Below are positions 7,490-40,306 of a stretch of DNA of 40,306 bases, piece after piece. The position numbers and the translations under genes are program-made. How positions within the stretch are numbered: position 1 is the stretch's first letter; the number at the start of each line of letters is the position of its first letter. A model generated the notes under the pieces. The model made no database searches, was not told the DNA's origin, and worked only from the letters and a program-made list of their open reading frames with translations. This DNA is from Sphingobacteriaceae bacterium (lineage in GTDB: Bacteria > Bacteroidota > Bacteroidia > B-17B0 > Aurantibacillaceae), in contig JAHEYC010000028.1 of NCBI GenBank assembly GCA_023251775.1, positions 1 to 40,306 on the forward strand, written 5' to 3'.

Positions 7490-7495
7490 AAATAA

Positions 7496-9054: not shown

Positions 9055-9060
9055 AGGAAT

Positions 9061-9110: not shown

Positions 9111-9127
9111 CCCGATAACTATCGGGA
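9110..9127. repeat. Short perfect palindrome with 2-base centre
   Basis: TCCCGATA, AC, TATCGGGA form an 8-bp perfect inverted repeat 24 bases before the moaC start. It abuts repeat C. It lacks a following T-run, so it is unlikely to be a terminator. It could be a protein-binding site, a translational hairpin or part of the repeat element. Confidence 0.6.
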
Positions 9128-9151
9128 CTGCGGCATTAAAAGAGAGATATT

Positions 9152-10069: not shown

Positions 10070-10100
10070 TAAGAAAAAATGTTACTTTTAGGCATTAAGA

Positions 10101-10892: not shown

Positions 10893-10899
10893 TTTAACC

Positions 10900-11913: not shown

Positions 11914-14646
11914 TTAGGCCTTAACTTTTGCATGCTTGTGTTGTCCTTTTGTTTTGCGAATATTCACCGCAACAACTTTGTATTCCGGACATAAAGCTTC
12001 AGTATCATGCTCATCGCTGGTAATAATATTTAGCATCACTTCAGGGAAATGGAACGTTGTACTTAAAATTCCCGGTTTCACTTCATCCGTTATAAATGCT
12101 TTAATATCTACTTTTCCTCTTAGTGATTCTACACAAACCATATCGCCATCCTTGATCAATGTTTTTTTAGCGTCAATTGGATTTATCATCAAAACATCTT
12201 CCGTTAAAATATCCACATTGCCCGTGCGTCTTGTCATGGTACCGCAATTATAGTGTTCTAATTTGCGATTTGTTGTAAGCGTATACGGATATTCTTTTCC
12301 GTTCTTCTTGATCTCCCCTGATTCTTTCCAATCAAAATAATGGAATTTCCCTTTTCCGCGTTTAAATGTTTCCAAATGCAGTATTTCGGTATCAGAACCA
12401 TCTTTTAAAACAGGCCATTGTTTCCCCATAGCACCAAGGTTTTCCCAAGTAACGCCTGCAAAGAACGGAACGATCTGAGAAATTTCTTCCAACATGGTAT
12501 CCGGTTGATATTCCGGTTGAGCATATCCCATTTTATTCATGATGTCAACCATAATTTGTCCATCACTCTTTGTTCCTTCTAATGGCTCAACCACTTTTTG
12601 AACTTTTTGAATTCTACGTTCAGCATTTGTATACGTTCCGCTTTTTTCTAAGAACGTTGCGCCCGGTAAAATAACATGCGCATACTTTGCTGTTTCGGTA
12701 AAAAATATTTCTTGCACAACCAATAGATCCAAATGTTCCATAGCAGCAATTACTTTGTTTGTGTTAGGATCGGTTTGCACCACATCTTCACCCATTAACC
12801 AAAGTGCTTTTAATTTTCCATCAATAGATGCATCAAACATCTCAGGAATTTTTAATCCTTTTCCTAATGGAATTGGTGCTTTATAAAAATCTTCATAAAC
12901 TTTATTCCAAGTAGCATCATATGAATCCATATAACCTGCACCTTGGTGTGGCTGACAGCCCATATCTGCTGCGCCCTGTACGTTGTTTTGTCCGCGTAAC
13001 GGATTTACTCCAACTCCTCTTCTTCCAATATTTCCTGTGATCATTGCTAAGTCAGAGATCAACATCACAGTAAAAGAACCTTGCGTATGTTCAGTAACAC
13101 CCAATCCGTGAAACGACATAGCATTTGGCGCTTTTGCATAAGCTAAAGATGCGGCCTTCACTAAATTTCTGTCAACGCCGGTAACTTTTTCCATTTCTGC
13201 AATATCCAATTTCAAAATTTGCGCTTTGAAATCTTCATATCCTTCGGTGCGATTTTCAATAAATTCTTTTGCTGCTGCTCCTTCGGTGATGATATAATAT
13301 AACATCATGTTTATAAGCGCAACATTTGTCCCCGGTTGCAATTGCAAATGATACGTTGCATACTTCGCCATTTCCGTTCTTCTAGGATCGATAACGATAG
13401 TAGTTTTTCCTTTCATCGCAAACTGTTTCAGTTTTGCTCCGGTAACAGGATGCGCATCGGTAGGATTTGCACCAATGATCATGATACAATCTGTATGTTT
13501 AATGTCTTCCACCGAATTGGTAGCTGCTCCTGTTCCAAACGAACGTTGCATACCTAAGGCCGTTGGTGAGTGACAAACGCGCGCGCAACAATCAATATTA
13601 TTTGTTCCAATAACTGCACGAATAAATTTCTGCATTAAATAATTTTCTTCGTTCGTACAACGAGCAGAAGAAATTCCGGCAATAGAATCAGGTCCGTGTT
13701 CTTTTTTAATAGTAGTTAATTTCCCTACGATAAAATCATAGGCTTCATCCCAGCTTACCGGCTCCAAATTTCCGTTCTTGCGGATCATAGGAGTTTTTAT
13801 TCTATCCTTATGATTATAGAAGGAAAATGCGAAACGTCCTTTTAAACAGGTATGCCCTTGATTTACTTCGGCATCATAAGGTGCTTGAATTGATTTTACT
13901 TTTTTATTTACAACAGTTACATCCAAATTACATCCCACGCCGCAATACGTACAAACGGTTCTGGTTTTTGTATCAGCAACAACTGCTTTTGATTCGAACA
14001 CATCAGAAATTGCAGAAGTAGGACAAGCTTGCGCACAAGCACCACAACTCACACAATCAGAATCAAAAAAAGATTTATTATCGCTTTTGATGATGTGACT
14101 ATCAAATCCACGACCCGACATGCTTAATACTAATTCACCTTGCACTTCATCGCATGCACGCACACAACGGTAACAATTGATACACTTCGAAAAATCGGAG
14201 GTCATGTATGGGTGACTAAGATCCTTCTTTTTATCTAAATGATTTTTTCCTTCGGGATAACGCACATCGCGCACGCCAACTTTTGCGGCAACGGTTTGTA
14301 ATTCGCAATTATTATTTACTTCACAGGTTAAACAATCAAGTGGATGATCTGTAAGAACCAACTCAATGATATTCTTACGTAAACGTTTTATTTTTTCGTT
14401 ATTGGTGTAGATATACGAATTTGCAATAACGGGCGTATGACAAGATGCCTGCGCTTTTGCAGGACCGTCTTTTACCAAGGCAACATCCACGCTACAAACG
14501 CGGCACGAACCGAACGGATCCAAATTAGGCGCATCGCAAAGCGTTGGCACTAATTCTTTTCCTAAATGTCTTCTTACAAAACTAAGAATGGTCTCTCCCT
14601 TTTTAATTGGGTACGACTTTTCATCGATGTAGGCAATTTGTTCCAT
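11914..14646 (-). CDS. fdhA: Formate dehydrogenase alpha subunit, Mo/W-bis-MGD, Cys type
   Basis: A 910-residue catalytic subunit oxidising formate to CO2. In order: a NuoG-like [2Fe-2S] domain (C37, C48, C51, C69); the HPLDCLTCEVNNNC cluster motif near 101; two ferredoxin [4Fe-4S] motifs (CINCYRCVRAC near 155, CVSCGACAQAC near 198); then the molybdopterin domain with its own [4Fe-4S] site (CTYCGVGC near 232, CLKG near 267). The active site reads CCARVCHSPT, so the metal ligand is Cys358 followed by His359, not selenocysteine. The C-terminal part is the bis-MGD-binding cap domain. I use ATG 14646, 4 bp after the fdhB stop; an in-frame ATG at 14685 would overlap fdhB and add 13 residues unlike the family. 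No Tat signal is seen, so the enzyme is cytosolic. Confidence 0.96.
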   Translation of the reverse strand: MEQIAYIDEKSYPIKKGETILSFVRRHLGKELVPTLCDAPNLDPFGSCRVCSVDVALVKDGPAKAQASCHTPVIANSYIYTNNEKIKRLRKNIIELVLTDHPLDCLTCEVNNNCELQTVAAKVGVRDVRYPEGKNHLDKKKDLSHPYMTSDFSKCINCYRCVRACDEVQGELVLSMSGRGFDSHIIKSDNKSFFDSDCVSCGACAQACPTSAISDVFESKAVVADTKTRTVCTYCGVGCNLDVTVVNKKVKSIQAPYDAEVNQGHTCLKGRFAFSFYNHKDRIKTPMIRKNGNLEPVSWDEAYDFIVGKLTTIKKEHGPDSIAGISSARCTNEENYLMQKFIRAVIGTNNIDCCARVCHSPTALGMQRSFGTGAATNSVEDIKHTDCIMIIGANPTDAHPVTGAKLKQFAMKGKTTIVIDPRRTEMAKYATYHLQLQPGTNVALINMMLYYIITEGAAAKEFIENRTEGYEDFKAQILKLDIAEMEKVTGVDRNLVKAASLAYAKAPNAMSFHGLGVTEHTQGSFTVMLISDLAMITGNIGRRGVGVNPLRGQNNVQGAADMGCQPHQGAGYMDSYDATWNKVYEDFYKAPIPLGKGLKIPEMFDASIDGKLKALWLMGEDVVQTDPNTNKVIAAMEHLDLLVVQEIFFTETAKYAHVILPGATFLEKSGTYTNAERRIQKVQKVVEPLEGTKSDGQIMVDIMNKMGYAQPEYQPDTMLEEISQIVPFFAGVTWENLGAMGKQWPVLKDGSDTEILHLETFKRGKGKFHYFDWKESGEIKKNGKEYPYTLTTNRKLEHYNCGTMTRRTGNVDILTEDVLMINPIDAKKTLIKDGDMVCVESLRGKVDIKAFITDEVKPGILSTTFHFPEVMLNIITSDEHDTEALCPEYKVVAVNIRKTKGQHKHAKVKA

Positions 14647-14650
14647 TTTT

Positions 14651-16306
14651 TTATTTTTTAAAATAAACCGACAATTCTTTTTCAAAGTACTTCATGGCAT
14701 TCTTTATAGGCAAAGGTAGTCCACCGCCTAAAGCACATAACGAGCCTATCTCTAAAGTTTCTAACAGGTCGTTCATCAAATTAATATCAATTTTATAGGT
14801 CTTATCACTTTGAGCCTTCTCCATCATCTCTGATCCACGGGTTGAGCCTAAGCGACAAGGAAAACATTTTCCACAACTCTCATGCGCGGTGAATTTGAAT
14901 AAATGCTCAATGTATTTTACAATAGGGAAATCTTTAGGGATACAAACTACAGAAGCGTGGCCCAATAAAAATCCTTCTTTAGCGAATGAATCAAAATCTA
15001 CTGTTAGATCTTTTATTTTTTGTACGGGAACTAATCCGCCTAAAGGACCACCAATATGCATTGCCTTTACCGGTTTAATAAATCCTCCGCCCAATTTATC
15101 GATCACCACCGAAAGCGGCGTGCCCATATCCACTTCATAAATTCCCGGATTTTTAAAATAGCCATCTAAGGAAACTAATTTTGTTCCTGTTGAACGCGCT
15201 GTTCCAATTGCCGCAAATGTTTTTCCGCCATTTTTGAAAATGAAAGGAAGGTTAGCTAAAGTTTCCACGTTATTTACAACAGTAGGTTTATTAAATAATC
15301 CTTTTTGTGTTGGATAAGGCGGACGAACTCGCACTTCCGGTCTTTGTCCTTCAATGGAAGACAGTAAAGCCGTCTCTTCTCCGCAAATATATGCGCCTTG
15401 TGCTTTAATAACTTTGAAATCGAAATTAAATCCTGAGCCGTTTATATTTTTTCCAAGTAATTTTTCTTTGTGCAATTCTTTGATGCATTCAGAAATAATA
15501 TCCACTGATTCGGGATATTCTCCGCGAATATAAACTACGCCACAATCGGCACCGCCAATATATCCGGCGATCATCATTCCCATAAGTAAAGAGTGCGGAC
15601 GTTGTTCCATTACATAACGATCAGAATAAGCACCCGGATCGCCTTCATCGGCATTACAAACAATAAATTTAGAGTCGGAAACTTCATTTTTACAAGATTC
15701 TAATTTAAATGCCATAGAAAATCCTGCGCCACCTCTTCCGCGAACACCTGAATCTTTTAGTTCTGATAAAAGTGTTGATGCGTCTTTTCCAAGGATAGAA
15801 GTAAAAATTTTATAATATTCTTTTATAGGACCATATTCTGCTGTAAGAATTCCTGCGCCTTTAGAACCAACTTTGTATTTTTCTAAAGTAGCTTGTTTCT
15901 TCTTTTTAATTTTTGCAATGTTATTTATATCCTTCCCCGAATAATTTGTTCCGTCAATATGAAAAGATGAATTTTCGTGGCAACGTCCTAAACAACACAT
16001 TTCGCCAATTTCTTTCGCCTTGTAATGCTTTTCCAGTTTTTTGTGCAGACCCTTTTGAGTTCCTTTGATCATACAAACGCTGCCGTTGCACACATAAACT
16101 TTTTTGCCTTTGTTCTCGGGTTTTAAGAAATCGTAAAAAGAAACAGTTCCGGTAACGGTAGATTTACCCACTAAAAAATCCTGGCGCAATTTTTCCATTA
16201 CGGCAATATCAGGCGTGCCTTTTTCGGAAGCAGCGATGCCAAGCTCCTCGAACAAATTTTTGTTTATGCCTTTGCGGCCCAGTAAGTGACTTAAGTTCTC
16301 TGACAT
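14651..16306 (-). CDS. fdhB: NAD-linked formate dehydrogenase beta subunit (NuoE-NuoF fusion)
   Basis: A 551-residue diaphorase subunit. Residues 1-125 are NuoE-like, with a thioredoxin-fold [2Fe-2S] site (C73, C78, C104 or C105, C109). Residues 150-551 are NuoF-like: the FMN/NADH site GRGGAGFSMAFKLESC (from ~190), NADEGDPGAYSDR, the CGEETALLSSIEGQRPEVR stretch, then a [4Fe-4S] motif ESCGKCFPCRLG with a distal Cys in SLCALGGG. It should pass electrons from FdhA to NAD+. It starts 5 bp after fdhD and ends 4 bp before fdhA, so the two are coupled. The NuoE-NuoF layout also occurs in bidirectional hydrogenases, but the partner FdhA makes formate dehydrogenase the clear choice. Confidence 0.94.
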   Translation of the reverse strand: MSENLSHLLGRKGINKNLFEELGIAASEKGTPDIAVMEKLRQDFLVGKSTVTGTVSFYDFLKPENKGKKVYVCNGSVCMIKGTQKGLHKKLEKHYKAKEIGEMCCLGRCHENSSFHIDGTNYSGKDINNIAKIKKKKQATLEKYKVGSKGAGILTAEYGPIKEYYKIFTSILGKDASTLLSELKDSGVRGRGGAGFSMAFKLESCKNEVSDSKFIVCNADEGDPGAYSDRYVMEQRPHSLLMGMMIAGYIGGADCGVVYIRGEYPESVDIISECIKELHKEKLLGKNINGSGFNFDFKVIKAQGAYICGEETALLSSIEGQRPEVRVRPPYPTQKGLFNKPTVVNNVETLANLPFIFKNGGKTFAAIGTARSTGTKLVSLDGYFKNPGIYEVDMGTPLSVVIDKLGGGFIKPVKAMHIGGPLGGLVPVQKIKDLTVDFDSFAKEGFLLGHASVVCIPKDFPIVKYIEHLFKFTAHESCGKCFPCRLGSTRGSEMMEKAQSDKTYKIDINLMNDLLETLEIGSLCALGGGLPLPIKNAMKYFEKELSVYFKK

Positions 16307-16311
16307 TTGTT

Positions 16312-17139
16312 TTATTTTTTTCCTGTTACCAATTCTCCGTTAACCAAATTGATCTGATCAGGATTTGAGTAAATAGTAAATTTATTATTTCTGCAAAAAC
16401 CCATTAATGTAATTCCCGATTTTTGTGCATTGTCAATAGCCAAAGTTGACGGCGCAGACACTGCAGCGAGAAAAGGAATATTTGCTGATCTTGCTTTTTC
16501 AACAATTTCATACGAGATCCTTCCGCTTACGGTAATGAATTTTGCTTTTTCTAGTAATTTATGATTGAGTAAATAACCAATTACTTTATCAACGGCATTG
16601 TGTCGGCCAATATCTTCTTGAAGGGTTAGCATTTCTCCGTCAATGGTAAATCCTCCTGCCGCGTGAGTTCCGCCCGCTTTTTTAAAATTTAATTGTCCTT
16701 CACTTATTTTTTCGAACATCTTGGGAACCAAAGCTCCGTTAAGTTTATTTGTATTCACAACGCGCGCGCAATGTGTGTCTCCATCCAAAGATGTTTTGCC
16801 GCAAACGCCGCAAGAAGAAGCGGAGATCACATTTCGTGTTCCTGCAAAATCTTTTGCAATGAATTCTTTGGGAATTTGGATATTTATCGAATCAATATGT
16901 CCTTCGCTATTTTTTGAAACAACTTCTACATCCAACGCGATCTCTTTATCAGTGATAATTCCTTCGGTAAATAATAATCCTCGTGCAAGATCAATTTCGT
17001 TACCCGGTGTTTGCATAGTAACAGTAAACGGAACTTTATTTACGGAAATGCTCAAAGCAACTTCAATGGAAATATAATCCTCTGTTTCAGAGAAATTTTT
17101 TCCGTTATAAATAATTCCGTTATAAAGTTCTACTTCCAT
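16312..17139 (-). CDS. fdhD: Formate dehydrogenase accessory sulfurtransferase
   Basis: A 275-residue FdhD, which transfers sulfur from a cysteine desulfurase to the bis-MGD cofactor of formate dehydrogenase so that the metal gains its sulfido ligand. The catalytic motif SSCGVCGK has C110 and C113. Other family features are the TPGNEIDLARGLLFTEGII stretch and LQEDIGRHNAVDKVIG. The ATG overlaps the fhs stop by one base (TAATG). Its position next to fdhB and fdhA gives direct support to the assigned role. Confidence 0.96.
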   Translation of the reverse strand: MEVELYNGIIYNGKNFSETEDYISIEVALSISVNKVPFTVTMQTPGNEIDLARGLLFTEGIITDKEIALDVEVVSKNSEGHIDSINIQIPKEFIAKDFAGTRNVISASSCGVCGKTSLDGDTHCARVVNTNKLNGALVPKMFEKISEGQLNFKKAGGTHAAGGFTIDGEMLTLQEDIGRHNAVDKVIGYLLNHKLLEKAKFITVSGRISYEIVEKARSANIPFLAAVSAPSTLAIDNAQKSGITLMGFCRNNKFTIYSNPDQINLVNGELVTGKK

Positions 17140-18824
17140 TATGAAAGTCCTGTAATGTTTCCGTTATTATCAATATCCATTCCTTCAGATGCAGGAATAA
17201 CCGGTAAGCCCGGCATACGCATCATTTCGCCAACTATCGCAACTAAAAATCCAGCCCCTGCAGCAACTTCAAATTCGCGAATATTAATTTTAAATCCTGT
17301 TGGGCGACCAACTTTCTTTTCATCTTCCGAAAAAGATTTTTGAGTTTTTGCCATACAGATCGGGAATTTATCAAATCCTAATTTTGCAAAATCTCTCATT
17401 TGAGTTCTTGCTTTTGGCGAATACGTTACATCATCTGCACCGTAAATTTCGGTAGCAATGGTTTTTATTTTATCTTCAATAGATAAATTCCAATCGTAAA
17501 GTTGTTTGTAATTGTTCTTTTTGCTTTCGATAACTTCTACAACCGCTTTTGCAAGATCCATGGTTCCATTTCCTCCATCGCCCCAACCTTTCGACACAAC
17601 TGCTTTTACGCCTAGAGAAGCACACTTTTCGATCACATAATTAATTTCAACATCCGAATCGGTGTAAAAATTATTTAATGCAACAACTGCGTGTAATCCA
17701 AATTTTTTGCAATTCTCAATATGTTTTTCCAAGTTCCCAAATCCTTTTTTGATATAATCCATGTTTGGCGTATTGTATTCATCAGGCTTTGCTCCACCAT
17801 GATGACGAAGCGCACGAATGGTTGCAACTATCACCAAAGCTTTTGGTTTTAATCCGCCAACCGGACATTTTATATCCAAGAATTTTTCTGCACCAAGATC
17901 TGCACCAAAACCTGCTTCGGTAACAGCGTAATCGCTTAGCGACATTCCCATTTTTGTAGCAACAATTGAATTTGTTCCTTGCGCAATATTAGCAAATGGT
18001 CCGCAATGAACAATAGCAGGATTTCCTTCAAGCGTTTGAACAAGATTTGGTTTGATGGCGTCTTTCAAAAGAATTGCCATAGCGCCTTCTGCTTTTAATT
18101 CGCGCGCAAAAACCGGACGTTTATCAAATGTATATCCAACAAAAATACTTCCTAAACGTTTTTTGAGATCTGGAAAATCTTTTGAAAGACAAAGGATAGC
18201 CATTACTTCAGATGCTGCGGTAATATTAAATCCCGTTTCGCGTGGAATTCCATTTGCAGTTCCTCCAAGTCCGATCACAATATCTCTTAAAGAACGATCA
18301 TTCATATCCATCACGCGTTTCCAAACAATTGTGCGTGGATCAATTCCAAGATTGCCGGATTTATTCTGAATATTATTATCAATCAATGCAGCCAATAAAT
18401 TATTTGCTTTTTCGATGGCCGAAAAATCTCCCGTAAAATGAAGATTGATATCAACCATAGGAATTACTTGCGAATGTCCACCGCCCGCTGCTCCGCCTTT
18501 CATTCCAAAAACAGGACCGAGCGAGGGCTCTCTTAGAACCACCATGGCTTTTTTACCAATTTTATTTAGGCCGTCGGTAAGTCCGATCGAAACTGTGGTT
18601 TTTCCTTCTCCCGCAGGTGTAGGATTAATAGCAGTTACTAAAACCAAATTACATTTTGCAACTTTCTCTTCGTTAATTAGAGTAAGGGGCAATTTGGCTT
18701 TATATTTTCCGTAATGTTCAAGGTCTTCAATATCTAAACCTAGCTTTTTTGCAATATTGTTTATGTGATCAATTTTAGCGCTTTGTGCTATCTCAAGATC
18801 GGTTAGTGTTGTTTTTGTTGTCAT
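17139..18824 (-). CDS. fhs: Formate-tetrahydrofolate ligase
   Basis: A 561-residue ATP-dependent ligase that joins formate to THF, making 10-formyl-THF. The P-loop-like TPAGEGKTT lies at 69-77, and GGAAGGGHSQVIPM and the C-terminal GFLVAIVGEMMRMPGLP are typical. Length is normal for the monofunctional bacterial enzyme. It is the first gene of the minus-strand formate operon and overlaps fdhD by one base, so the same transcript encodes enzymes that either oxidise formate or feed it into folate. No folD is visible in the window, although metF lies at 1.4 kb. The leader region can form alternative hairpins. Confidence 0.97.
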   Translation of the reverse strand: MTTKTTLTDLEIAQSAKIDHINNIAKKLGLDIEDLEHYGKYKAKLPLTLINEEKVAKCNLVLVTAINPTPAGEGKTTVSIGLTDGLNKIGKKAMVVLREPSLGPVFGMKGGAAGGGHSQVIPMVDINLHFTGDFSAIEKANNLLAALIDNNIQNKSGNLGIDPRTIVWKRVMDMNDRSLRDIVIGLGGTANGIPRETGFNITAASEVMAILCLSKDFPDLKKRLGSIFVGYTFDKRPVFARELKAEGAMAILLKDAIKPNLVQTLEGNPAIVHCGPFANIAQGTNSIVATKMGMSLSDYAVTEAGFGADLGAEKFLDIKCPVGGLKPKALVIVATIRALRHHGGAKPDEYNTPNMDYIKKGFGNLEKHIENCKKFGLHAVVALNNFYTDSDVEINYVIEKCASLGVKAVVSKGWGDGGNGTMDLAKAVVEVIESKKNNYKQLYDWNLSIEDKIKTIATEIYGADDVTYSPKARTQMRDFAKLGFDKFPICMAKTQKSFSEDEKKVGRPTGFKINIREFEVAAGAGFLVAIVGEMMRMPGLPVIPASEGMDIDNNGNITGLS

Positions 18825-28420: not shown

Positions 28421-28817
28421 CATCCTCCCTTGGCATTGTCTTCACCTCAGGCCTTCCTTAAACGATCCTTTGTACGAATTCGAATTTAAGCGTTGTTTTA
28501 CTTAATATTTTTAACAACACTTCTGGAGAGGTTTTCATAAATCATTAGGATACTTATAATTTATATGAATTTCTAATTATTCATCAATTTGAATAATTCA
28601 TCTAATTATAAAAATTTGTTGATTCAATAATATTTGCATATTTAATATAAATCAAATTAGAAATATTTAATTAATATGAAATTGATAAACATAAATAAAT
28701 ATATTTAATATGATTATTGAAAATCTATTTCTATATCAAAAGCTCACCAAATGTATTGTTAAAAATATTAACTCTAAATGAAGTTTTGATCAAAATGAAT
28801 GGTTGATAAGTTTAAAT

Positions 28818-28833
28818 TGTTTCACGTGGAACC
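28818..28833. promoter_or_regulatory. parS-like ParB-binding site 1
   Basis: TGTTTCACGTGGAACC differs at one base from the canonical bacterial parS 16-mer TGTTtCACGTGgAACA. It lies between the A+T-rich island and the 3' end of the methyltransferase gene. Two more such sites lie 606 and 979 bp away. Confidence 0.85.
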
Positions 28834-28844
28834 TGAAAGGATCC

Positions 28845-28873
28845 AAATAAAAAAGCGCCCTATAAGGACGCTT
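28845..28873 (-). terminator. Terminator of the mnmG-methyltransferase unit
   Basis: AAGCG, one mismatch, CC and GG, mismatch, CGCTT form a stem at 28853-28873. On the minus strand it is followed by a T-rich run (TTTTTTATTT), 24 bp past the methyltransferase stop. Confidence 0.7.
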
Positions 28874-28896
28874 AACGAAGACTTCTTTTTGGTCGT

Positions 28897-29787
28897 TTAA
28901 GGCTTTTTAAAGACGTATATAACGCTTGAATAGTCTTTGCCTTGTTTGGCCCTTAGGTTTGATCTAAGTCCTGTAAAAAAGGCCGAAACATAGTTGACCT
29001 TTCCGGTCTTATATTTCTCGCTCAGCATGCTCACATAATAACTATCGAACTTCATTGGAAGAGATTCTACATATTTGAACCCGGCCTTTTGAACAACCTC
29101 AACCATTGTCTTTTCATCAAAGTGATAAAGATGTCTTGGAACATCGTAGGCTGCCCAAAACTCTTTATAGGTTTGTGCATCGTAACTCATATAGTTTGGA
29201 ACGGCAATTATCAAAGCTCCGCCAGAATTTAATTTAGTGTTGAACCAAGAGAGTGTTTCATTCAGATCCATTACGTGTTCCAAAACGTGCCAAAGTGTAA
29301 TGCAATTAAACTCTACATCCTTGAGATTGGCTAGTGCTGTTTTCACATCAGGATAAACCCTTGTGATCTTGTTCTCGTTCATTGCAAAATCTCTTGCCCC
29401 GGGATCAGGTTCTATCCCAAACACGTTCCACGTGGAACCGCGAGCAACCGAAAGAAACATTCCTGTACCGCATCCATAGTCCAAAAGGTTTCCCTTTTTG
29501 CTGTGTTTGGAGATAAGATTAAGCTTTCCTTTCAATGTATAATTGCGGACTGCTTTGTAGAGTTTGCTTATTAATCCTTTGCTGGTATTAGAGTGGGAGA
29601 TGTAGCTTTCGGACTTATAGAAGTCTCCTATTTTATCTTCCGAAGGACGAGGGTTAGTGAATTTGAAACTGCAACTTTTACAAGAAACTATCTGAAATGT
29701 TTCTTGGCTTACGGTATAGTCCTTGCAGGAAATGAAAGGCTCAAAAGAGCTTCCGTTACAACATGGACAATTACTTAAACTGGTCAT
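28897..29787 (-). CDS. Class I SAM-dependent methyltransferase with N-terminal zinc-ribbon-like motif
   Basis: A 296-residue protein. Residues 5-40 have two Cys pairs (CPCC and CKSC) that may bind zinc. The Rossmann methyltransferase core follows, with motif I LLDYGCGTGMFLSVA near 100, and ITLWHVLEHVMDLNETLSWF further on. This layout occurs in Methyltransf_23-type enzymes acting on sugars, lipids or quinone-like substrates; the substrate cannot be read from the sequence. It starts 25 bp after mnmG ends and is likely co-transcribed. The gene carries a parS-like site at 29424-29439 in its coding sequence (encoding G-S-T-W-N). Confidence 0.88.
   Translation of the reverse strand: MTSLSNCPCCNGSSFEPFISCKDYTVSQETFQIVSCKSCSFKFTNPRPSEDKIGDFYKSESYISHSNTSKGLISKLYKAVRNYTLKGKLNLISKHSKKGNLLDYGCGTGMFLSVARGSTWNVFGIEPDPGARDFAMNENKITRVYPDVKTALANLKDVEFNCITLWHVLEHVMDLNETLSWFNTKLNSGGALIIAVPNYMSYDAQTYKEFWAAYDVPRHLYHFDEKTMVEVVQKAGFKYVESLPMKFDSYYVSMLSEKYKTGKVNYVSAFFTGLRSNLRAKQGKDYSSVIYVFKKP
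29424..29439. promoter_or_regulatory. parS-like ParB-binding site 2, inside a gene
   Basis: CGTTCCACGTGGAACC contains the perfect 14-bp palindrome GTTCCACGTGGAAC (29425-29438). It is read through as codons for Gly-Ser-Thr-Trp-Asn in the methyltransferase. Confidence 0.85.
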
Positions 29788-29796
29788 ATATAAAAT

Positions 29797-29812
29797 TGTT
29801 GCACGTGGAACA
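29797..29812. promoter_or_regulatory. parS-like ParB-binding site 3
   Basis: TGTTGCACGTGGAACA matches the parS core at all but one position of the left half. It fills most of the 25-bp gap between the mnmG stop (29813) and the methyltransferase ATG (29787). Confidence 0.85.
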
Positions 29813-31720
29813 CTAGCGTCCCATGTGCACTAAAAGTATAGAAATATCTGAAGGACTTACTCCCGAAATACGACTCGCCTGACCAATTGAAAAGGGCTTA
29901 AGTTTCTTAAGCTTTTCTTTCGCTTCGGTACTTAATGAAGAAATAGATTCATAATCGTAGTCGGGTCTTATTCTTAATTCTTCCAGGCGCTCAAGCTTGT
30001 CGGCGTTCTCCTTTTCCTTAGAAAGATAGCCTTCGTACTTGATCAAGATCTCGGCCTGTAAAATAGTTTCGAAATCAAATGGACTTAAGAAAGATTCTAA
30101 TTCCGGATCCACTTTTCTCATTTGATTGATGTCGACATTGGGTCTTGAGAGTATATTGGTGTATTTTATTTTTTGATTAATAGGGGCAGAATCTATAGAC
30201 GCCAAATAAGGATTTATGATCTCCGGCTGCGCGCTGGTTTCCTTAATGTGTTTCATGATCGCCTTATAGTTCTCTTCTTTTTTAAGAACAACATCAAGAC
30301 GATCTTTTTTTGCCAAGCCAATATCATAGCCCAGTTTCGTTAAGCGGATATCGGCATTATCTTGTCTCAACAATAAACGATATTCTGCTCTTGAAGTAAA
30401 CATTCGATAAGGTTCATCAGTTCCTTTTGTAACAAGATCATCTATCAAAACACCAATGTAGGCTTCGCTTCTTTTCAAAACAAATTCAGGTTTTTCATTC
30501 ACTTTTAAATGCGCATTTATTCCCGCCATCAATCCTTGGCAAGCAGCTTCCTCATAACCTGTTGTTCCATTGATCTGCCCTGCGAAATATAAATTGTCAA
30601 CTAATTTTGTCTCCAAGGTCATTTTTAATTGGGTAGGGGGGAAGTAATCATATTCGATAGCATAACCCGGGCGGAACATCTTAACTTTCTCAAAACCAGG
30701 GATTAACCTAAGTGCTTGATTTTGAATATCTTGCGGTAAAGAGGTAGAAAATCCATTTACATAGATCTCAACGGTGTTCCATCCTTCGGGCTCAACAAAT
30801 ATTTGGTGACGTTCTCTTTCCGAAAAACGGGTGATCTTATCTTCAATGCTTGGGCAATAACGCGGACCAAGACCTTGAATTCTTCCGGAATACATTGGAG
30901 ATTTTTCGAATCCTGTTTTTAAAATATCGTGTACTTTTTGATTTGTGTAAGTGAGATGACAAGGAATTTGTTTTTTTAATTCACGAGGAACATTTGTTTT
31001 GTGCGAATTAAAGAACGGAGATGTATTGGGTAAATACGAAAATTTATCGGCTACCTCATCGCCTTCTTGCACTTCCATTTTACTATAATCCAAAGTGCGT
31101 CCGTCAATTCGCGGAGGAGTTCCGGTCTTCATCCTTCCGGATTCAAATCCTAATTTTACTAACTGCTCAGTGATCCCAAACGATGCGCTTTCGCCCATAC
31201 GTCCACCCCCAATTTGTTTTTCGCCAATGTGAATTAACCCATTTAAAAAAGTTCCATTCGTAAGCACAACGCTTTTCGCTTTGAACTCAATTCCCATTCC
31301 CGTTACAACACCTTCAACGCGCTTTCCATCTTTGGAAATGATCAAGCTTTTAGCCATGTCTTGCCAAAAATCAACGTTGGGCGTTTGCTCTAACATTTCT
31401 CTCCAATAGGTTGCAAATTGCATGCGATCGTTTTGCGTGCGCGGACTCCACATAGCGGGGCCTTTACTTCTGTTCAACATTCTAAATTGAATAGCAGATC
31501 TGTCGGAAACAATTCCGCTATAACCCCCAAGGGCATCAATTTCCCTTACAATTTGTCCTTTTGCAATTCCGCCCATAGCAGGATTACAACTCATTTGTGC
31601 AATGGTTTGCATGTTCATGGTAAGGAGTAAAACCTTTGAGCCCATGTTGGCGGCTGCGGCGGCGGCTTCACAACCTGCATGACCTGCGCCAATGACTATG
31701 ACATCGTAATTCTGTTCCAA
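29813..31720 (-). CDS. mnmG: tRNA uridine-34 carboxymethylaminomethyl modification enzyme
   Basis: A ~635-residue MnmG (GidA), the FAD-binding partner of MnmE that makes cmnm5U34 in tRNAs. The FAD motif [16 protein letters not shown] is at the N-terminus, followed by [43 protein letters not shown] and [18 protein letters not shown] choose TTG 31720 ([13 protein letters not shown]), which matches the family N-terminus. A GTG at 31738 would add MYLCTR but lies over a TATCTTTG promoter-like element. mnmG is a classic neighbour of bacterial origins, which fits the parS sites just downstream. MnmE is not in the window. Confidence 0.96.
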
Positions 31721-31727
31721 GCGGGTA

Positions 31728-31735
31728 CAAAGATA
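31728..31735 (-). promoter_or_regulatory. Candidate -7 element of mnmG
   Basis: The minus strand reads TATCTTTG (TAnnTTTG). It ends 7 bases before TTG 31720 and overlaps the alternative GTG start at 31738, which would imply a nearly leaderless mRNA. No good -33 box is visible. Confidence 0.3.
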
Positions 31736-31886
31736 CACTTTTCACGTAACCATTTTATAAGGCTTCCGTTACACAAAGGAAGGAGCTGGGGGTTAAATTA
31801 TGATAAAAGCGTTAAATCGGCACTTTTCTTAAATAATTTTATGGAACCTGAACTTTGCCGCATCTAAATTACGTAAAACCTATACT

Positions 31887-33383
31887 ATGAAAAAATTATT
31901 ATCTATTGGAATGTTGAGCATGAGTTGTTTAATTGCCTCGGCGCAAAACAGCTCTGATTTTAAAGTGTTCACGCCTGCAAAAAGCGGAATAAAGACCACA
32001 GAAAAATTATTAGAATCGCTTATTGGCGAAGGGGTAGTTCTAAAGAATTACAGCATCACAAAATCGAGTGGTGAAGAAGCTTTTGGTTTTTTTGAAGATA
32101 GTAAAGAGCGTTTGGGGATGAAAAAAGGTTTAGTAATGACCACCGGCGGAATTATTGCCTTGTCAAGTAAGAATACTTCTCCATCGATGAGTAATAATAC
32201 ACATGCGCGCATTGAAGGAAGAGGTGTTGTTACACAAGAAACCGGTTATGCCGAATTAGAGAAATTAATTAATAATCAAAAAACATTTGATGCCTGTGTG
32301 ATAGAATTGGATATTGTTCCAACCGCAGATACATTAAGTTTTAATTATGTGTTTGGGTCGGAAGAATATGATGAGTTTGTTGGAAGTAATTACAACGATA
32401 TTTTTGCTTTCTTAATTAGCGGAAAAGGAATTACGGTAAATAAGAATTTAGCGGTTGTTCCTAATACAGAAATTCCCGTTTCGGTAAATACCATCAATAA
32501 TGGAAGCGGAAATGGCTCGTATAAAGCGCGCCCAACCAATTCAACATTTTATGTAACAAATACTGATGGACATATAGGAATTGAATATGATGGCATGACA
32601 AAATTAATGCAGATCCGTCAGCCCGTTACGCCTTACGAAACGTACCATATTAAATTATGCATAGCCGACGTGAGTGATAATTCTTATGATTCGGGTGTAT
32701 TTATTGAAGGGCAAAGTTTTGTTTCTTACGATAAAACATACAATGTATTATACAAAAAGAACGACAAAGAAATTGAGCCGGGTTATAAAACATTATTAGA
32801 TAACTTGAGCAAAGAATACAAAAAACATCCGGAAGGAAAAATATTGATCACGGGTCATACCGACGAAGAAGGAGATAATACATTTAATATGACGCTTTCG
32901 TGCGAGCGCTCAACTATTGTAGGAAATTATTTAAAAGCAACGGGAATTCCTGCCGATAGAATTGTAGTAGATTGCAAAGGCGAAACTATGCCTGCTTATG
33001 ATAATACAAAAGCGGTTGGTCAGGCCCTTAACAGAAGAGTAGAGGTAAAGCTAACGGGAAATTCACAAGCGTATCTTACGAAAAAAGCAAATGCAGATGC
33101 TGCTATTACCCCAGAGCTTTCGGAAAAATCAACGCTTATTAAAAACTTTCCAAATCCATTTATTGATATGACAACGCTTGATGTTTTTGTTAAGTCGGAT
33201 GTAAAAGACGCAAGTATTACCATTATGGATGTTAACGGAAAACAAGTAAAGACCATTCATTTATTGGAGCGCGGAAATACCAATGTAAATTTTGATGGGC
33301 AATCTTTAGCAAAAGGAATTTATATGGCAACGCTGAACACAGATGGTGCCAAACAAAATACTTTGAAAATAATTCTTCAGTAA
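31887..33383 (+). CDS. Choice-of-anchor-L / OmpA-domain protein with T9SS sorting domain
   Basis: A 498-residue exported protein with signal peptide MKKLLSIGMLSMSCLIASAQ. Residues ~30-275 match the choice-of-anchor L type (GLVMTTGGI, then LSFNYVFGSEEYDEFVGSNY and NDIFAFLISGKG). Residues ~295-400 are an OmpA C-terminal-like peptidoglycan-binding domain: GHTDEEGD, SCERSTIVGNYLKATGI and NRRVEVKL keep the key Asp and Arg. The last ~80 residues (FPNPFIDMTTLDVFV ... GIYMATLN ... KIILQ) are a T9SS type A sorting domain. Combining a peptidoglycan-binding domain with T9SS export is unusual. It is divergent from mnmG and convergent with the response-regulator gene, 4 bp away. Function unknown; adhesion or cell-envelope anchoring is inference. 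Confidence 0.9.
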   Translation: MKKLLSIGMLSMSCLIASAQNSSDFKVFTPAKSGIKTTEKLLESLIGEGVVLKNYSITKSSGEEAFGFFEDSKERLGMKKGLVMTTGGIIALSSKNTSPSMSNNTHARIEGRGVVTQETGYAELEKLINNQKTFDACVIELDIVPTADTLSFNYVFGSEEYDEFVGSNYNDIFAFLISGKGITVNKNLAVVPNTEIPVSVNTINNGSGNGSYKARPTNSTFYVTNTDGHIGIEYDGMTKLMQIRQPVTPYETYHIKLCIADVSDNSYDSGVFIEGQSFVSYDKTYNVLYKKNDKEIEPGYKTLLDNLSKEYKKHPEGKILITGHTDEEGDNTFNMTLSCERSTIVGNYLKATGIPADRIVVDCKGETMPAYDNTKAVGQALNRRVEVKLTGNSQAYLTKKANADAAITPELSEKSTLIKNFPNPFIDMTTLDVFVKSDVKDASITIMDVNGKQVKTIHLLERGNTNVNFDGQSLAKGIYMATLNTDGAKQNTLKIILQ

Positions 33384-33387
33384 AAAA

Positions 33388-34152
33388 CTATAGGAGATTT
33401 AATTTACCTAACAATTCCTCGCGGTATGAACCACCAACGGGAATTGTTTTTTTATCGTTCTCCAATACCACATTTTGATTTTCGATCGCTTGAATTTTAT
33501 CTATTCGCGCAATGAACGAACGGTGAACGCGAATGAATTGAGTGTTGCCCAATTTCTTTTCAATGTCCTTCATGGTACTGTGAACTGTATAGCGCGCGTA
33601 TTGTGTGTTAATGATCACATAATCTTTTAGCGCCTCTACGTAATAAATATCTTTTAGAAGTATCTTAACTAATTTACTGTTAGCTTTTACAAATAAAATA
33701 TCAGCTCCGGCCTCGTCTTTGTTTTCTACTAAAGAATAAAGGAAGTCGCGTTCTTTTTTTAGCTCCAGGTCTTTTTTGTGTTTATATGCGCTCATTTCAA
33801 TTGAGCTGTGAAGATCGATCTCTTTGAATGGTTTTAAAATGTATCCGTAAGGTTCAGTGATCTTTGCTTTACTTAAAGTTGCTTCATCGGCGTAAGCGGT
33901 TAAATAAATTATAGGAAGGTTCATGGTTTCCTTTAATTTTTCGCTTACATCAATTCCTGTCATTGGGCCTTTGATCATGATATCCATCAACACAAGATCC
34001 GGATTTGTATCCTGAATTTGTTGAATTGCCTCAGCGCCATTATTGGCAACGCCAACTACATTATAGCCCAGTTTTACCAAGCTGTTTTGAATATCCTTTG
34101 CAACAATGCTCTCGTCTTCTACAATAAAGATATTTAATTTGCTATTTTCCAT
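33388..34152 (-). CDS. LytTR-family response regulator
   Basis: A 254-residue two-component regulator. The receiver domain (residues 5-125) has the acidic pair in VEDES, the phosphoacceptor Asp57 in LVLMDIM, a Thr in YLTAYAD and the conserved Lys in LKPF. The LytTR DNA-binding domain fills the C-terminal ~100 residues (KDIYYVEALKDYVIINT, FIRVHRSFIARIDKI, IPVGGSYR). LytTR proteins bind tandem promoter sites. The ATG is 4 bp after the histidine-kinase stop, so the two are a cognate pair. Confidence 0.94.
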   Translation of the reverse strand: MENSKLNIFIVEDESIVAKDIQNSLVKLGYNVVGVANNGAEAIQQIQDTNPDLVLMDIMIKGPMTGIDVSEKLKETMNLPIIYLTAYADEATLSKAKITEPYGYILKPFKEIDLHSSIEMSAYKHKKDLELKKERDFLYSLVENKDEAGADILFVKANSKLVKILLKDIYYVEALKDYVIINTQYARYTVHSTMKDIEKKLGNTQFIRVHRSFIARIDKIQAIENQNVVLENDKKTIPVGGSYREELLGKLNLL

Positions 34153-34156
34153 TGAT

Positions 34157-37100
34157 CTAAATTAAAAAACTAATATTTACTCTTGTTCCTTGCGGTTCTG
34201 TTCTTTCAAAATTGATCTTTCCGTCTATCTGATCGATGAGCGTATAAACCAGCTGAAGTCCAAGAGTTCCGCTTTTTTCGGTGCTAATATCGGGACCAAT
34301 TCCAACCCCGTTATCTTGCACAGTTAAAAATACTAATTTGTTCTCAGTTCGCAAATTTATAGAAATTATTCCTTTGATAGAGTTAGGGAAGGCGTGTTTT
34401 ATGGAATTAGTGATCAACTCGTTAATAATTAGGCCTAAAGGAATAGAAATATCAAGGTTCAGGATGGTTTTTTCGCAGTTAAGTTGCAGTTGCAATCTCT
34501 CAGGCGACACCGAATAAGAGTGAATAATGTTGCTAATAAGTTGCGTTAGATACTCATTAAAGTTTATTGAAGAGAATGTTTTATTCTGATATAGGCTTTC
34601 GTGAATATACGCCATTGTTTTGATCCGGTTCTGACTCTCGCGTAATAAATTTAAAATATTACTGTCGCTTGTGTAAGATGATTGAAGGTTCAAAATACTG
34701 GAGATGATCTGCATATTATTTTTTACACGATGATGCACTTCTTTCAATAATACTTCTTTTTCTTTCAGTGATTGTTTGATGTGTTCCTCGTTGAGTTTTG
34801 TTGCCGTAATGTCGTGCGCAATTCCTGAAACCTCCATGATCTCATCCTTTTCCATTACTGGATTTAGAAAAACATCTAAAAAAACTTTTTCTCCTTTTTT
34901 TCCGATAAGCTCTAATTCGAAATTTATTTTTTCACCTTCAAATGCTTTACCATAATTATTCTCCATTCTTTTTATGTACTCTTCGTTCTCAAGCATTTTT
35001 CCACGGTCGAGGGGCTCGCCTAATTTAGGGACAGACTCGTAAACTTTATGAATGAGGTCGGTATAGTTCTTATTGAATGAGGTTAAATTATTTTCTCTAT
35101 CAACTGTCCAAATATAGTGTGAGCTTCCTTCAAAGAGCGCATGAAGTTTTGCGGTTTGCCTGAACGTGCTTTGTTCAGCCGTAACTTTTTCGGTAATGTC
35201 TTTTCCTAAACCATATACTTCCACGATCTCTCCTGTCTCGTTATAAATTGGGTGGAGATAAAATTGCATATCGTATTCTCTGCCGCTCGCGTCTCTTCTT
35301 TCGGAAACAAACTCCAGTGGCTTTCCTTTAAATACTTCTTTATACATTTCTTTCCATTGGCCCCATATTTTAAGAGCCACTTTATTATTCTTAAGGTCGT
35401 CTAAGCGTCCTCCAAGTTTTGGGTAAGATCTATAAAAGTCGTGGAAGGTGTCGGCAAATTTTCTATTAAAAGAAGTGTATCTATATTCTTTATCTACTGT
35501 CCAAAGTGTTTGATTTCCGCTTTCAAAGATCGCCTTCATTCTGGAAGTTTGTTCCATGATCTTTTTCTCGGCGCCTTTCCTTAATTCAATTTCCTTTACC
35601 AGTTTTTTATTGTGTTCCTCGGTTAGTTCGGCTTTTATCCTCGCTTTCTCCAAGATCTCTCTTTCGGTAATATCTTTTACCAACGAAAGCACGCAGTTTA
35701 TTCCATTGTATCTAATCGGCACCGTTTTTATTTCGACATTAATGTGCTTGCCTTTACTATCGCTGATCTGGTAATTGATAAATTCAAATTCTTTTCCTTC
35801 GGTGGCCGCCCTCATTCGCTCAATAGCTCTCGAGCGTTGTTCGGGTATAATATAATTTATTATGAATTTTCCGATAATATCTTTTTCGCTGCGAACCCTT
35901 AAGAGTTCTACCGCTTGTTTATTGCACATTAAACAAACTCCCTTATCGTGAATAAAGAACGAAATGGGCGATTGATCCAATAATAATTTATAATCGCTCC
36001 ATTTTTGGTCTAGTTCTTTTTCTTTTTCTTTAAGATCGTTTATGTTTCGAACGATGCCAAACAAAAAACTGATCTTGCCTTTTTCATCGCGAATGGGATT
36101 AATGTGGTCTTCCATCCAAACGGTTTCGCCCTTACTATTCTGTATTTGAAAATCTACTTTATGTTGGGTATAAGTTCCCTTTAGTTGCATTTTTGCGGCA
36201 ACTTTTTCGTGCTCCTTGAACGCGTTCGTTTTTCCAATAGTTCTTTTGTTAAGATAAAAAGGGTCTTTATAGATCTCTTTTGGATCGTATCCTAAAACTT
36301 TTTTTACTGAGTTGCTTATAAAAAGATATTTTGGTTTTGGATGATAGGTATAAAAATAAATAATGTCGTGAGCATTATTAGCGATAAGCCTTAATTGTTC
36401 CTGAGTAATATTGAGCTGGGCCTCGGTTTCTTTTTGTTTTGTAACATCGCGACTAACGCTTAAAATAGAAACAACCTTGCCCTTTTCGTTCTTAACCGCG
36501 CTCTGAATGGTCTCAAGCCAAATAATATTTCCATTTTTACCGATGTATTTTGAGATGTTGCGCTCATTCTTTTGTACATACTTTATATAGGCCTCGGTTT
36601 TAGTGGGAAATTTCTTTCGATCATCGGGATGTAATATCCGTGAGAATAATTCTTTTTTATTCAGCCATTCTTTAATAGAATATCCTAAGATCTTTTCGGC
36701 CGATTCGCTGATGTAGGAGTAATGCTCTTTTGGATAAAGGTCGTACTTAAAAATAATGTCAGCACTATTTTTACCAATGAGTTCTAGTATGGTTTTCGCT
36801 TGCTCTAACTCACTATACGATCTTTTACGATCTGTGATCTCATAAAAAATTGCTTGTGTTGCTTTTACTTCACCAACGGAAACCACATTTGATTTTGCCT
36901 CAACATCAATAAGATTCTTCTTGCTATCCCTTATCTTTAATTCGAGTGGCTGAAAGTCTTCCCCTTTGGTGATCTTCAAATTATTCTCTTTTATGCGCTT
37001 ATGATATTCGGGTAAAATAAAATCAAAAGCGTTCAGCTTTGAAACATCAAGGTTCTTTTTTGGGAGTTTTAAGAGTTCCTTGGCTTTTTGATTTAAAAAA

Positions 37101-37180
37101 TAAATCTTTTTGTTGTCGAAAATAACAAGCGGAATAGATAAAAGATTGAGTGCCGAAAAATCCTGAGTTTCCTTTTTCAC
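34157..37180 (-). CDS. Six-PAS sensor histidine kinase (HisKA_2 type)
   Basis: A 1007-residue soluble kinase without any membrane helix. About six PAS/PAC units run from residue 10 to ~790. The last two are close copies of each other (TLWTVDKEYRYTSFNRKFAD versus YIWTVDRENNLTSFNKNYTD). The dimerisation/phosphoacceptor region is of the HisKA_2 type (KEVHHRVKNNMQIISSILNL near 813), followed by a HATPase with NELITNSIKHAFP, DNGVGIG and GTLGLQLVYTLI motifs. PAS domains may bind small ligands or cofactors, but no ligand can be assigned. It is encoded between the YwqK-repeat gene (9-bp gap) and its LytTR regulator, in one operon. Confidence 0.93.
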   Translation of the reverse strand: MKKETQDFSALNLLSIPLVIFDNKKIYFLNQKAKELLKLPKKNLDVSKLNAFDFILPEYHKRIKENNLKITKGEDFQPLELKIRDSKKNLIDVEAKSNVVSVGEVKATQAIFYEITDRKRSYSELEQAKTILELIGKNSADIIFKYDLYPKEHYSYISESAEKILGYSIKEWLNKKELFSRILHPDDRKKFPTKTEAYIKYVQKNERNISKYIGKNGNIIWLETIQSAVKNEKGKVVSILSVSRDVTKQKETEAQLNITQEQLRLIANNAHDIIYFYTYHPKPKYLFISNSVKKVLGYDPKEIYKDPFYLNKRTIGKTNAFKEHEKVAAKMQLKGTYTQHKVDFQIQNSKGETVWMEDHINPIRDEKGKISFLFGIVRNINDLKEKEKELDQKWSDYKLLLDQSPISFFIHDKGVCLMCNKQAVELLRVRSEKDIIGKFIINYIIPEQRSRAIERMRAATEGKEFEFINYQISDSKGKHINVEIKTVPIRYNGINCVLSLVKDITEREILEKARIKAELTEEHNKKLVKEIELRKGAEKKIMEQTSRMKAIFESGNQTLWTVDKEYRYTSFNRKFADTFHDFYRSYPKLGGRLDDLKNNKVALKIWGQWKEMYKEVFKGKPLEFVSERRDASGREYDMQFYLHPIYNETGEIVEVYGLGKDITEKVTAEQSTFRQTAKLHALFEGSSHYIWTVDRENNLTSFNKNYTDLIHKVYESVPKLGEPLDRGKMLENEEYIKRMENNYGKAFEGEKINFELELIGKKGEKVFLDVFLNPVMEKDEIMEVSGIAHDITATKLNEEHIKQSLKEKEVLLKEVHHRVKNNMQIISSILNLQSSYTSDSNILNLLRESQNRIKTMAYIHESLYQNKTFSSINFNEYLTQLISNIIHSYSVSPERLQLQLNCEKTILNLDISIPLGLIINELITNSIKHAFPNSIKGIISINLRTENKLVFLTVQDNGVGIGPDISTEKSGTLGLQLVYTLIDQIDGKINFERTEPQGTRVNISFLI

Positions 37181-37189
37181 AAAACGATA

Positions 37190-38851
37190 TTATGGTTTAC
37201 TTCTAATGGTTTGTGTTTTATCTTCTCCTATCTTGATATTATAGGTTCTAACACTCTGTTCGTAGGTTGGAAATATTTTATCGCCCTGCCATCTGATCTC
37301 AATATCATCTTTATAAAAAACAGTAAGATAATTATAGCCAAGGTCGTCGTAAAATTTCCAATCTCCCTCTTTTAGTCCGCCTTGATAGCTTCCTTCTACC
37401 ATTTTTTTACCATTACGATAATAGAATGTGTGATAGCCCTCGGGCGTTCCTTGTATAAATTTACCGACAAACAGTTTTGTTTTTTCGGGTTTATAAAATC
37501 CTTTCCATAAACTATCAGGCTCGTCGTTCACAAAATTACCGTACTCATAATATTCAGAGTTCTCATAATTCCACATTCCTTCTTTTCTGTTATCTATCCA
37601 ATTTCCTTTGGTAATTATTTTTCCCGCTTCGGTATAATCTGTCATTATTCCTTCTCGCTTTCCGTTCACATAATTCTCTTCGCGCATTAAATTCCCGCTT
37701 TCGTAATACCATTTCCAAACTCCTTGCGTGCGGCCTTTTTTATCGTAGCGTCCTTTTTGTTCTAATTTACCCGACGAATAAAAAAATTCCCATTCGCCAG
37801 TTCGTGATCCCGCAACATAAATTCCTTTTCCTTTAAATTCTCCGGTAACATGGTATTCTATCCAAGGACCAATTCTATTTCTTGCGCTATCAACTTGGCC
37901 TTTTGCCACAACTGTGCCATTAAAATATTCAATGGCGCTATCAGGGATAGAATAATTACTGCACATCCATTTTTTATGAAATATCTTTAATGAATCATTA
38001 TAATATTCTACCGAATCGCAAATTCTTGCGGGTTTATAATGATAATGTGTGCCAATTGCAACACCCTCATCATACACGCCCTCGTATTTTAATGAGCCGT
38101 CGCTGTATTTTTCTTTATACCATTCTACCTGACGAGTTTCGGGAGCGCGAGGTAAGAATTTTCCGTTATCGTATTTTTTAATTGATGTAAGATTTCCTTT
38201 TTTATCATATTCCTTTACAAAACCATCAATAGAATCGTTCAAATAAATAGCTTCTTTTTTAGGATCACCGTTCGGATATAGCTCTTTCCATAAACCTTGC
38301 TTTCTTCCTAATTCATCTTTGCGATTTATTTTTTCGTTGCTTGTTGTAAATCCAACTTTATAATTTACTATAGAAATAACCGTAGAGTCCTCTGCGTATT
38401 CATAAGCAGTACCGTCTTGTTTTCCATTCACATAATTAATAATGGTTTTAAGTTTGCCGGAGGTATAGAATTTTTTTGCCGGACCTTCTTTTACATCATT
38501 CGCATACGTTTCCGAAGAAGTAACTCTTCCGAGTGTATCATATAAATTAGTTAGTCCGTTCTTTTTTCCTTCTTTATAATTTACAGCGCGGGTAACTCTT
38601 CCTCTTTCATCGTAAAAACTCCATGTACTATCTAACTGAAAATTTTTGCGATTTCCTGCGATCTTTAAATTGCCATTCAAATAATAATTCTTCCAAAAAC
38701 CATCAGGCTTTCCGTCTTTCATATTTCCTTCACTGCTAATTTTACCATTTTCGTAATAAAATTTTTGATACCCATTCTTTACGGTAGTTTGTGAAAACGA
38801 AAAGATAGCGCTTATTAAAAAACCTAGGAATATATAGTGTTTACGGGACAT
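37190..38851 (-). CDS. Exported YwqK/MORN-like repeat protein
   Basis: A 553-residue protein with a signal peptide (MSRKHYIFLGFLISAIFSFS) and about 15-20 copies of a ~23-residue motif such as YYLNGNLKIAGNRKN or YYESGNLMREENYVNGKREG. These are YwqK-type (MORN_2-like) beta-hairpin repeats, sometimes annotated as toxin-antitoxin YwqK antitoxin, although there is no toxin here. No T9SS domain or lipobox is seen at the ends. It is probably periplasmic or secreted. It lies 9 bp upstream of the kinase gene and 36 bp after nadA, so it may belong to one transcription unit. A ligand-binding or envelope role would fit but is unproven. Confidence 0.88.
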   Translation of the reverse strand: MSRKHYIFLGFLISAIFSFSQTTVKNGYQKFYYENGKISSEGNMKDGKPDGFWKNYYLNGNLKIAGNRKNFQLDSTWSFYDERGRVTRAVNYKEGKKNGLTNLYDTLGRVTSSETYANDVKEGPAKKFYTSGKLKTIINYVNGKQDGTAYEYAEDSTVISIVNYKVGFTTSNEKINRKDELGRKQGLWKELYPNGDPKKEAIYLNDSIDGFVKEYDKKGNLTSIKKYDNGKFLPRAPETRQVEWYKEKYSDGSLKYEGVYDEGVAIGTHYHYKPARICDSVEYYNDSLKIFHKKWMCSNYSIPDSAIEYFNGTVVAKGQVDSARNRIGPWIEYHVTGEFKGKGIYVAGSRTGEWEFFYSSGKLEQKGRYDKKGRTQGVWKWYYESGNLMREENYVNGKREGIMTDYTEAGKIITKGNWIDNRKEGMWNYENSEYYEYGNFVNDEPDSLWKGFYKPEKTKLFVGKFIQGTPEGYHTFYYRNGKKMVEGSYQGGLKEGDWKFYDDLGYNYLTVFYKDDIEIRWQGDKIFPTYEQSVRTYNIKIGEDKTQTIRSKP

Positions 38852-38887
38852 CTTGGACTTATAAATCTACTAAAAAAATACCAGTTG

Positions 38888-39850
38888 TTAAAGTCCGAAT
38901 TTAGCCGATAATTCAAGCATTTTTAGGATGGGACGCTTGGCTTTTTCCATTAGATCTACATTCATAACGAGTTCGGGCTGCTCATATTTTAAGGAAAGGT
39001 AAATTTTTTCTAATGTATTGAGTTTCATATAGGGACAATCGTTACAAGCGCATGAATTATTAGGTGGTGCGGGAATAAATGTCTTATTAGGACTTGCTTT
39101 TTGCATTTGATGTAAAATACCTGTTTCTGTCAATACAATGAACTCTTTATCATCACTTTTTTTGGAATAATTTAACAGTGCTGTTGTACTTCCTATAAAA
39201 TCTGCATGTTCTAAAATAGCTTCTTCACATTCCGGATGCGCAATTATCTTTGCTTTTGGATTTTGAACTTTTAGTTTTATTAATTTTTCTAAACTAAAAA
39301 TTTCATGAACCATACATGTTCCATCCCATAAGACCATATTTCGTTTTGTTTTTTTATTAATATAAGCTCCAAGATTTTTATCCGGTGCAAATATTATTTT
39401 TTGATCTTTTGGTAAGCTCTCTACAATTTGAACCGCATTACTACTTGTACAAATAATATCTGATAATGCTTTTATTTCGGCTGTACAATTAATATAAGTA
39501 ATGATAATATGATCGGGATGTTTTTCTTTAAATTCTTTAAATTTATCTGTAGGACAAGAATCGGCTAAACTACATCCGGCATTAAGATCTGGAATTAAAA
39601 CTTTTTTTGTTGGATTTAAAATTTTTGCGGTCTCGGCCATGAAATGAACTCCGGCAAACAAAATGATATCGGCATTTGTTTTTTGAGCTTGTTGCGCCAG
39701 TCCTAAGCTGTCGCCAATGTAATCCGCAATGTCCTGTATGTCGTTGTTCTGGTAATAGTGAGCCAAAAGTAGAACGTTCTTTTCTTTTTTCAAAGTTTTT
39801 ATTTCTTCAAAAAGATCTAAACTTGGATCAACCTCTTTATCTAATAACAT
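38888..39850 (-). CDS. nadA: Quinolinate synthase
   Basis: A 320-residue NadA, the [4Fe-4S] enzyme that condenses iminoaspartate and dihydroxyacetone phosphate to quinolinate in NAD synthesis. The N-terminal [20 protein letters not shown] is the family signature. Cluster ligands are in [10 protein letters not shown] (C93 and/or C99), GTCMVHE near 178 and CACNDCP near 267. Its usual partners nadB and nadC are not in the window. It is the upstream-most gene of a minus-strand run with YwqK, the kinase and the regulator. No clear promoter is seen in the A+T-rich region before it. Confidence 0.96.
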
Positions 39851-40306
39851 ATATATATTTTTAAAATAAATTAAATATTACTATTATTATAAGGTGTTAG
39901 TATGGTTAGTAAAGAATTAAATAAAAATTAGGAGATAGGGGTTATTACACATTATGAATACGTTATAAACAAAGGTAAAGGTTTAAACATCTGGAAATCA
40001 AAGATAGCGAGTTTAATTAACATGTCTTAATTACTCTTAACACTCATAACTTTCATCCTATTTTGATTGTTTATATACCCAATTTCGTTCTTAAAACTTC
40101 TTGCAGATAAATTTAAAATGATAGTGTAAAACTCAAACATCATCTGCATAACATAATAAGTTAACAATTGGGTAAAATCTTATGTTTTGTTTATGAGACA
40201 AAAATAATAATATTAACATGCTTTTGAGTGATTTGTGTTAATACCACATCGCTGAACATCAGCCGATTATTTTATGAGTGTTAATTAACGTTGATTACTA
40301 CTTTTA
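39851..40306. other. A+T-rich non-coding stretch at window end
   Basis: I see no supported gene, RNA or terminator in these 456 bases. A small inverted repeat, GCTGA ACA TCAGC, occurs near 40251. TTATTACACA near 39942 is not a good DnaA box. Part may be the promoter region of nadA; the neighbour to the right lies outside the window. Confidence 0.4.

Follow-up and report, generated by a model that had tools for sequence, protein, structure and literature searches.

Three parS sites beside mnmG are, as read from the sequence, the chromosomal centromere (ParABS) of this Bacteroidia bacterium, with binding of ParB predicted at each of them. They lie about 10 kb from an intergenic element (39851-40306) that is the likely oriC, and the one site located inside a gene appears to be under selection. 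We give this reading as a whole a probability of roughly 0.83. All coordinates refer to the window, that is, the whole stretch of 40,306 nucleotides that was analysed; the genome it belongs to is a draft of 144 contigs and 3,598,727 bases. The features of the centromere region are as follows.

28819..28832, no strand: parS site 1, GTTTCACGTGGAAC, exact match; intergenic, downstream of the methyltransferase gene
29425..29438, no strand: parS site 2, GTTCCACGTGGAAC, exact match; within the methyltransferase gene, codons 117-121 (GSTWN)
29798..29811, no strand: parS site 3, GTTGCACGTGGAAC, exact match; gap between mnmG and the methyltransferase gene
28897..29787, minus strand: class I SAM-dependent methyltransferase gene (PF13489, 98.6 bits), host of parS site 2
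29813..31738, minus strand: mnmG (gidA; TIGR00136, 848 bits; PF01134)

A motif scan of the window found GTTNCACGTGNAAC with zero mismatches at 28819, 29425 and 29798, three copies inside 993 bp. The original prediction had described three parS-like sites within about 1 kb next to mnmG, and both the sites and their neighbour are as it said; the 16-mers it listed (28818, 29424 and 29797) start one base before the exact 14-bp sites. It had also proposed a genome-wide motif search, which we ran: across the 3,598,727-base draft, no exact copy of GTTNCACGTGNAAC lies outside the 28819-29811 cluster beside mnmG. From base composition, 0.0016 copies would be expected by chance in the window and 0.14 in the genome, and the control motif, reversed but not complemented, had no match in the same draft.

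The clustering is shared by relatives. Exact parS occurs in 55 of 60 related genomes, mostly as two to four grouped copies, and in the 20-kb neighbourhoods that we read, from the genus and many other families, it adjoins mnmG and usually the methyltransferase gene too. Most congeners, and many of the other families, have the latter gene next to mnmG or near it, and many congeners, as well as other families, keep a parS at the position of site 3. Four of the five genomes lacking an exact site were checked (G009, G021, G033 and G046); they nevertheless encode a ParB above the family cut-off, and their missing sites may reflect an assembly gap, these being draft assemblies, or sites that have diverged. 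We found no paper in a literature search that links parS with mnmG in Bacteroidota.

The genome also encodes the proteins expected to act on these sites. On a contig other than that of the window (C70 of G000), a ParB open frame scores above the TIGR00180 cut-off and carries the GERRFRA motif, with a ParA open frame directly upstream; both are intact. In our model, ParB would load at the three parS sites and spread from them across mnmG and its neighbours, and would so enable ParA to separate the origin regions once they have been copied. With the SMC family profile, no Smc match rose above the family cut-off in five genomes; two Bacteroidetes without a known condensin have been described (PMC10197239).

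Next, we consider the site within the methyltransferase gene. In our genome it covers codons 117-121 (GSTWN, frame 1). Of 20 congeners, 16 have their exact parS of this gene around codons 96-100 (VSRGT, frame 0), where the remaining four have a one-mismatch parS; our genome reads SKKGN at these codons, with no parS. Three other families have the intragenic site at codons 26-30 (VSRET), and one locus (L192) has, besides this copy, another (RSTWN, frame 1) close to the C-terminal end. Within the genus the VSRGT peptide shows good conservation, as would be expected if the intragenic parS were not a working site and resulted from codon bias or from conservation of the protein. We consider this highly improbable: our genome keeps a parS elsewhere in the same gene and in another frame, other lineages keep it at further places, and the codons over the site are frozen more than the rest of the gene. 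Codon identity among congeners is 0.85 across the intragenic parS against a mean of 0.49, exceeding all 56 comparable five-column stretches. As a parS persists in the gene although it shifts in place and frame between genomes, it is the DNA site and not the peptide that seems to be selected. Selection would retain a parS somewhere in the methyltransferase stretch, with its exact place in the gene free to move. Together with the unique sites, the class-wide clusters by mnmG and the intact parA and parB, this codon constraint supports well the earlier proposal of a ParB loading centre.

The original prediction further suggested that the origin itself might lie at the parS sites and the very A+T-rich block beside them, and cautioned that it could lie elsewhere nearby. 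The features that bear on this question are the following.

28541..28800, no strand: A+T-rich island beside parS site 1, 85% A+T, one GTTAAT word; probably not oriC
37190..38851, minus strand: MORN-repeat gene (PF07661), second origin neighbour, conserved beside the element
38888..39850, minus strand: nadA (NF006878, 465 bits), transcribed away from the candidate oriC
39851..40306, minus strand: candidate oriC; A+T-rich, conserved and intergenic, upstream of nadA; the contig end cuts its far edge

The A+T-rich block is real, as is the reported lack of a clear DnaA-box cluster. Positions 28551-28800 are the highest 250 bp of the window in A+T (85%), adjoin parS and lie near mnmG, all of which would suit an origin. 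However, BLAST matches to congeners hit chiefly the parS next to the island, a scan for canonical DnaA boxes found no cluster beside the island, and GTTAAT occurs in it once, compared with five times in the nadA element. The island is probably not oriC because it is unconserved and has no cluster of DnaA-box-like words, and the skew minima of congeners, described below, fall at the nadA/MORN element instead. That the island is the replication origin is therefore very improbable. The warning that the origin might be found elsewhere nearby was sound, as the candidate at 39851-40306, about 10 kb away, is conserved and has support from skew and from a cluster of words.

GC skew was analysed over 400 contiguous kb around parS in two single-contig congeners, G001 and G030. 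The cumulative minimum falls at 957,971 in G001, where parS spans 953,000-954,346, and at 2,329,163 in G030, where parS spans 2,321,614-2,325,486. Both minima thus lie 3-7 kb from parS. Each of them has a conserved intergenic element about 100 bp away, which is on the upstream side of the MORN gene, or of nadA in most other congeners. Sparse 20-kb samples taken round both whole contigs roughly agree, with the minimum in the region of parS and the element. The strand-controlled third-position skew of G001 changes at 957.5-963.5 kb (likelihood ratio about 104); for G030 the corresponding fit puts 2,328.5 kb among the best points, with a point 80 kb off equally good. Closeness of parS to the origin is therefore supported by GC skew in these two congeners, and this part of the original suggestion stands; its placing of the origin at the island probably does not, as the minima are elsewhere and the island is not conserved.

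In the window itself, the cumulative skew minimum (38,782) lies about 1 kb from the element; the third-position skew is weak, and its sign is not the one expected left of an origin. The skew minimum at the element is found in G001 and G030 and is weak or absent in three other loci (L111, L115 and L116), which show no local flip there, and the sharp flip next to the element partly reflects gene composition. Given the 144-contig draft, the origin of our genome is placed from the congeners and from the fact that the element is conserved.

This element, of about 450 bp, is found genus-wide: twelve sequences (the window and 11 congeners) could be aligned, the window copy being the most diverged, and nadA adjoins it in most congeners and several other families. 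When the rest of oriC was sought in our own draft, the contig end alone stood out; the terminal 38 bp of the contig match the G001 element with an E value of about 2e-6 in that search. A search of the 144 contigs for rpiB gave no match, which by itself shows nothing; a draft gap next to the origin would fit this result.

Canonical DnaA boxes (TTATCCACA) form no cluster in the window or in congeners; over the 400 kb analysed in G001 and G030, the element is not the place where these or TGTTGATAA words are densest. The word GTTAAT occurs five times in the window element against 1.0 expected, a count reached by 20 of 5000 shuffles. Across the twelve elements there are 77 copies against 15 expected, a partly circular count, since the elements counted are those from which the word was picked out. 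No stretch off the element in the 400 kb of G001 and G030 has as many. Possibly, the GTTAAT words are DnaA boxes that have drifted from TTATCCACA. Since variant words take the place of a canonical cluster, we call the element a candidate only; it is nonetheless most likely the replication origin, and a better candidate than the island.

The gene block containing nadA, the MORN gene, a kinase and a regulator (31887-39850 in the window) lies between mnmG and the candidate origin here and in two other loci (L111 and L125). In other congeners (L108, L109, L117 and L118) it is found beyond the candidate origin, an arrangement such as an inversion of the stretch about the origin would give. The MORN-repeat protein itself, a conserved neighbour of the origin, has below-cut-off similarity to an adhesin family.

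In other phyla, dnaA is a frequent neighbour of the origin. One might then suppose that the parS sites are bound by ParB and merely organise the region, with the true origin elsewhere, for example at dnaA, all the more as the firing of an origin at the nadA/MORN element is deduced from sequence. We regard this as very improbable. The dnaA gene is at 28 in G001 and at 1,232,514 in G030, which puts it about 0.96 Mb (G001) and 1.1 Mb (G030) away from the skew minimum. In published Bacteroidota genomes the origin has been put by mnmG, away from dnaA (PMC11278836, PMC12843772), and Hi-C work found parS clusters at ori that are not always close to dnaA (PMC10197239). These three sources agree that the origin of Bacteroidota or gut bacteria may lie by mnmG or parS and off dnaA. 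With regard to the partition genes, parB is at 2,684,193 in G001 and 4,818,659 in G030. The spacing in these two genomes is unusual for ParABS, with 1.7-2.5 Mb between parB and parS and about 1 Mb between dnaA and the skew minimum.

The element upstream of nadA has counterparts beyond the genus. In several other families, the local skew minimum falls on an A+T-rich gap that has rpiB on one side and nadA or a MORN gene on the other (L181, L184, L190 and L192). Such gaps hold TTATCCACA, TTATCAACA or TTATTAACA words, with near-canonical DnaA boxes in several. This suggests that the box may have shifted gradually, with the genus now at TGTTAATNA. The C-terminal helix of DnaA reads GGKDHATVLHACRTV. 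We tentatively propose, as a conjecture that is somewhat more likely wrong than right, that DnaA of the genus recognises TGTTAATNA, reached from TTATCCACA via TTATCAACA, and that the parS of the methyltransferase gene shifts in place and frame while the site tends to be kept. If this were true, standard origin finding would miss the origin in this genus. The lineage offers a case in which the drift of an initiator box can be put to the test.

Elsewhere in the window, genes for a formate dehydrogenase alpha subunit, a NuoF-like subunit and formate--tetrahydrofolate ligase are grouped at 11914-18824, adjoined by molybdopterin genes (moaA, moaC/B, moeA and moeB-like) at 4741-11907. A protein at 10101-10892 has weak, below-cut-off similarity to a Fic domain (NF046030, 29 bits). 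The Rfam scan of the window returned one tRNA and nothing else.

Our analysis provides a concrete map of the centromere and the likely origin in a poorly studied lineage of Bacteroidia, in which dnaA is a poor marker of the origin. The change of place and frame of the intragenic parS suggests selection for a DNA function working through coding sequence. As in known chromosomal ParABS (Spo0J/ParB-parS) systems, exact consensus sites are clustered near the likely origin, and the ParA and ParB genes are adjacent; the differences here are a distance of 1.7-2.5 Mb between parAB and parS, as measured in G001 and G030, and the lack of an Smc that scores above the family cut-off. The candidate element resembles a bacterial oriC with DnaA boxes (TTATCCACA) in being A+T-rich, in its repeated short words and in its position at the skew minimum, and differs in that the words are TGTTAATNA-like while the canonical boxes are unclustered. 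The mnmG-associated oriC of Bacteroidota (PMC11278836, PMC12843772) likewise has its predicted origin by mnmG and not by dnaA, whereas the candidate described here stands apart from parS by 3-14 kb, as an intergenic element of its own on the upstream side of nadA or the MORN gene. Finally, in Pseudomonas aeruginosa nine of ten predicted parS sites are most likely in coding sequence (PMC4368675), so that a parS inside an open reading frame has precedent; the difference here is that lineages vary in where, and in which reading frame, one orthologous gene holds the site.
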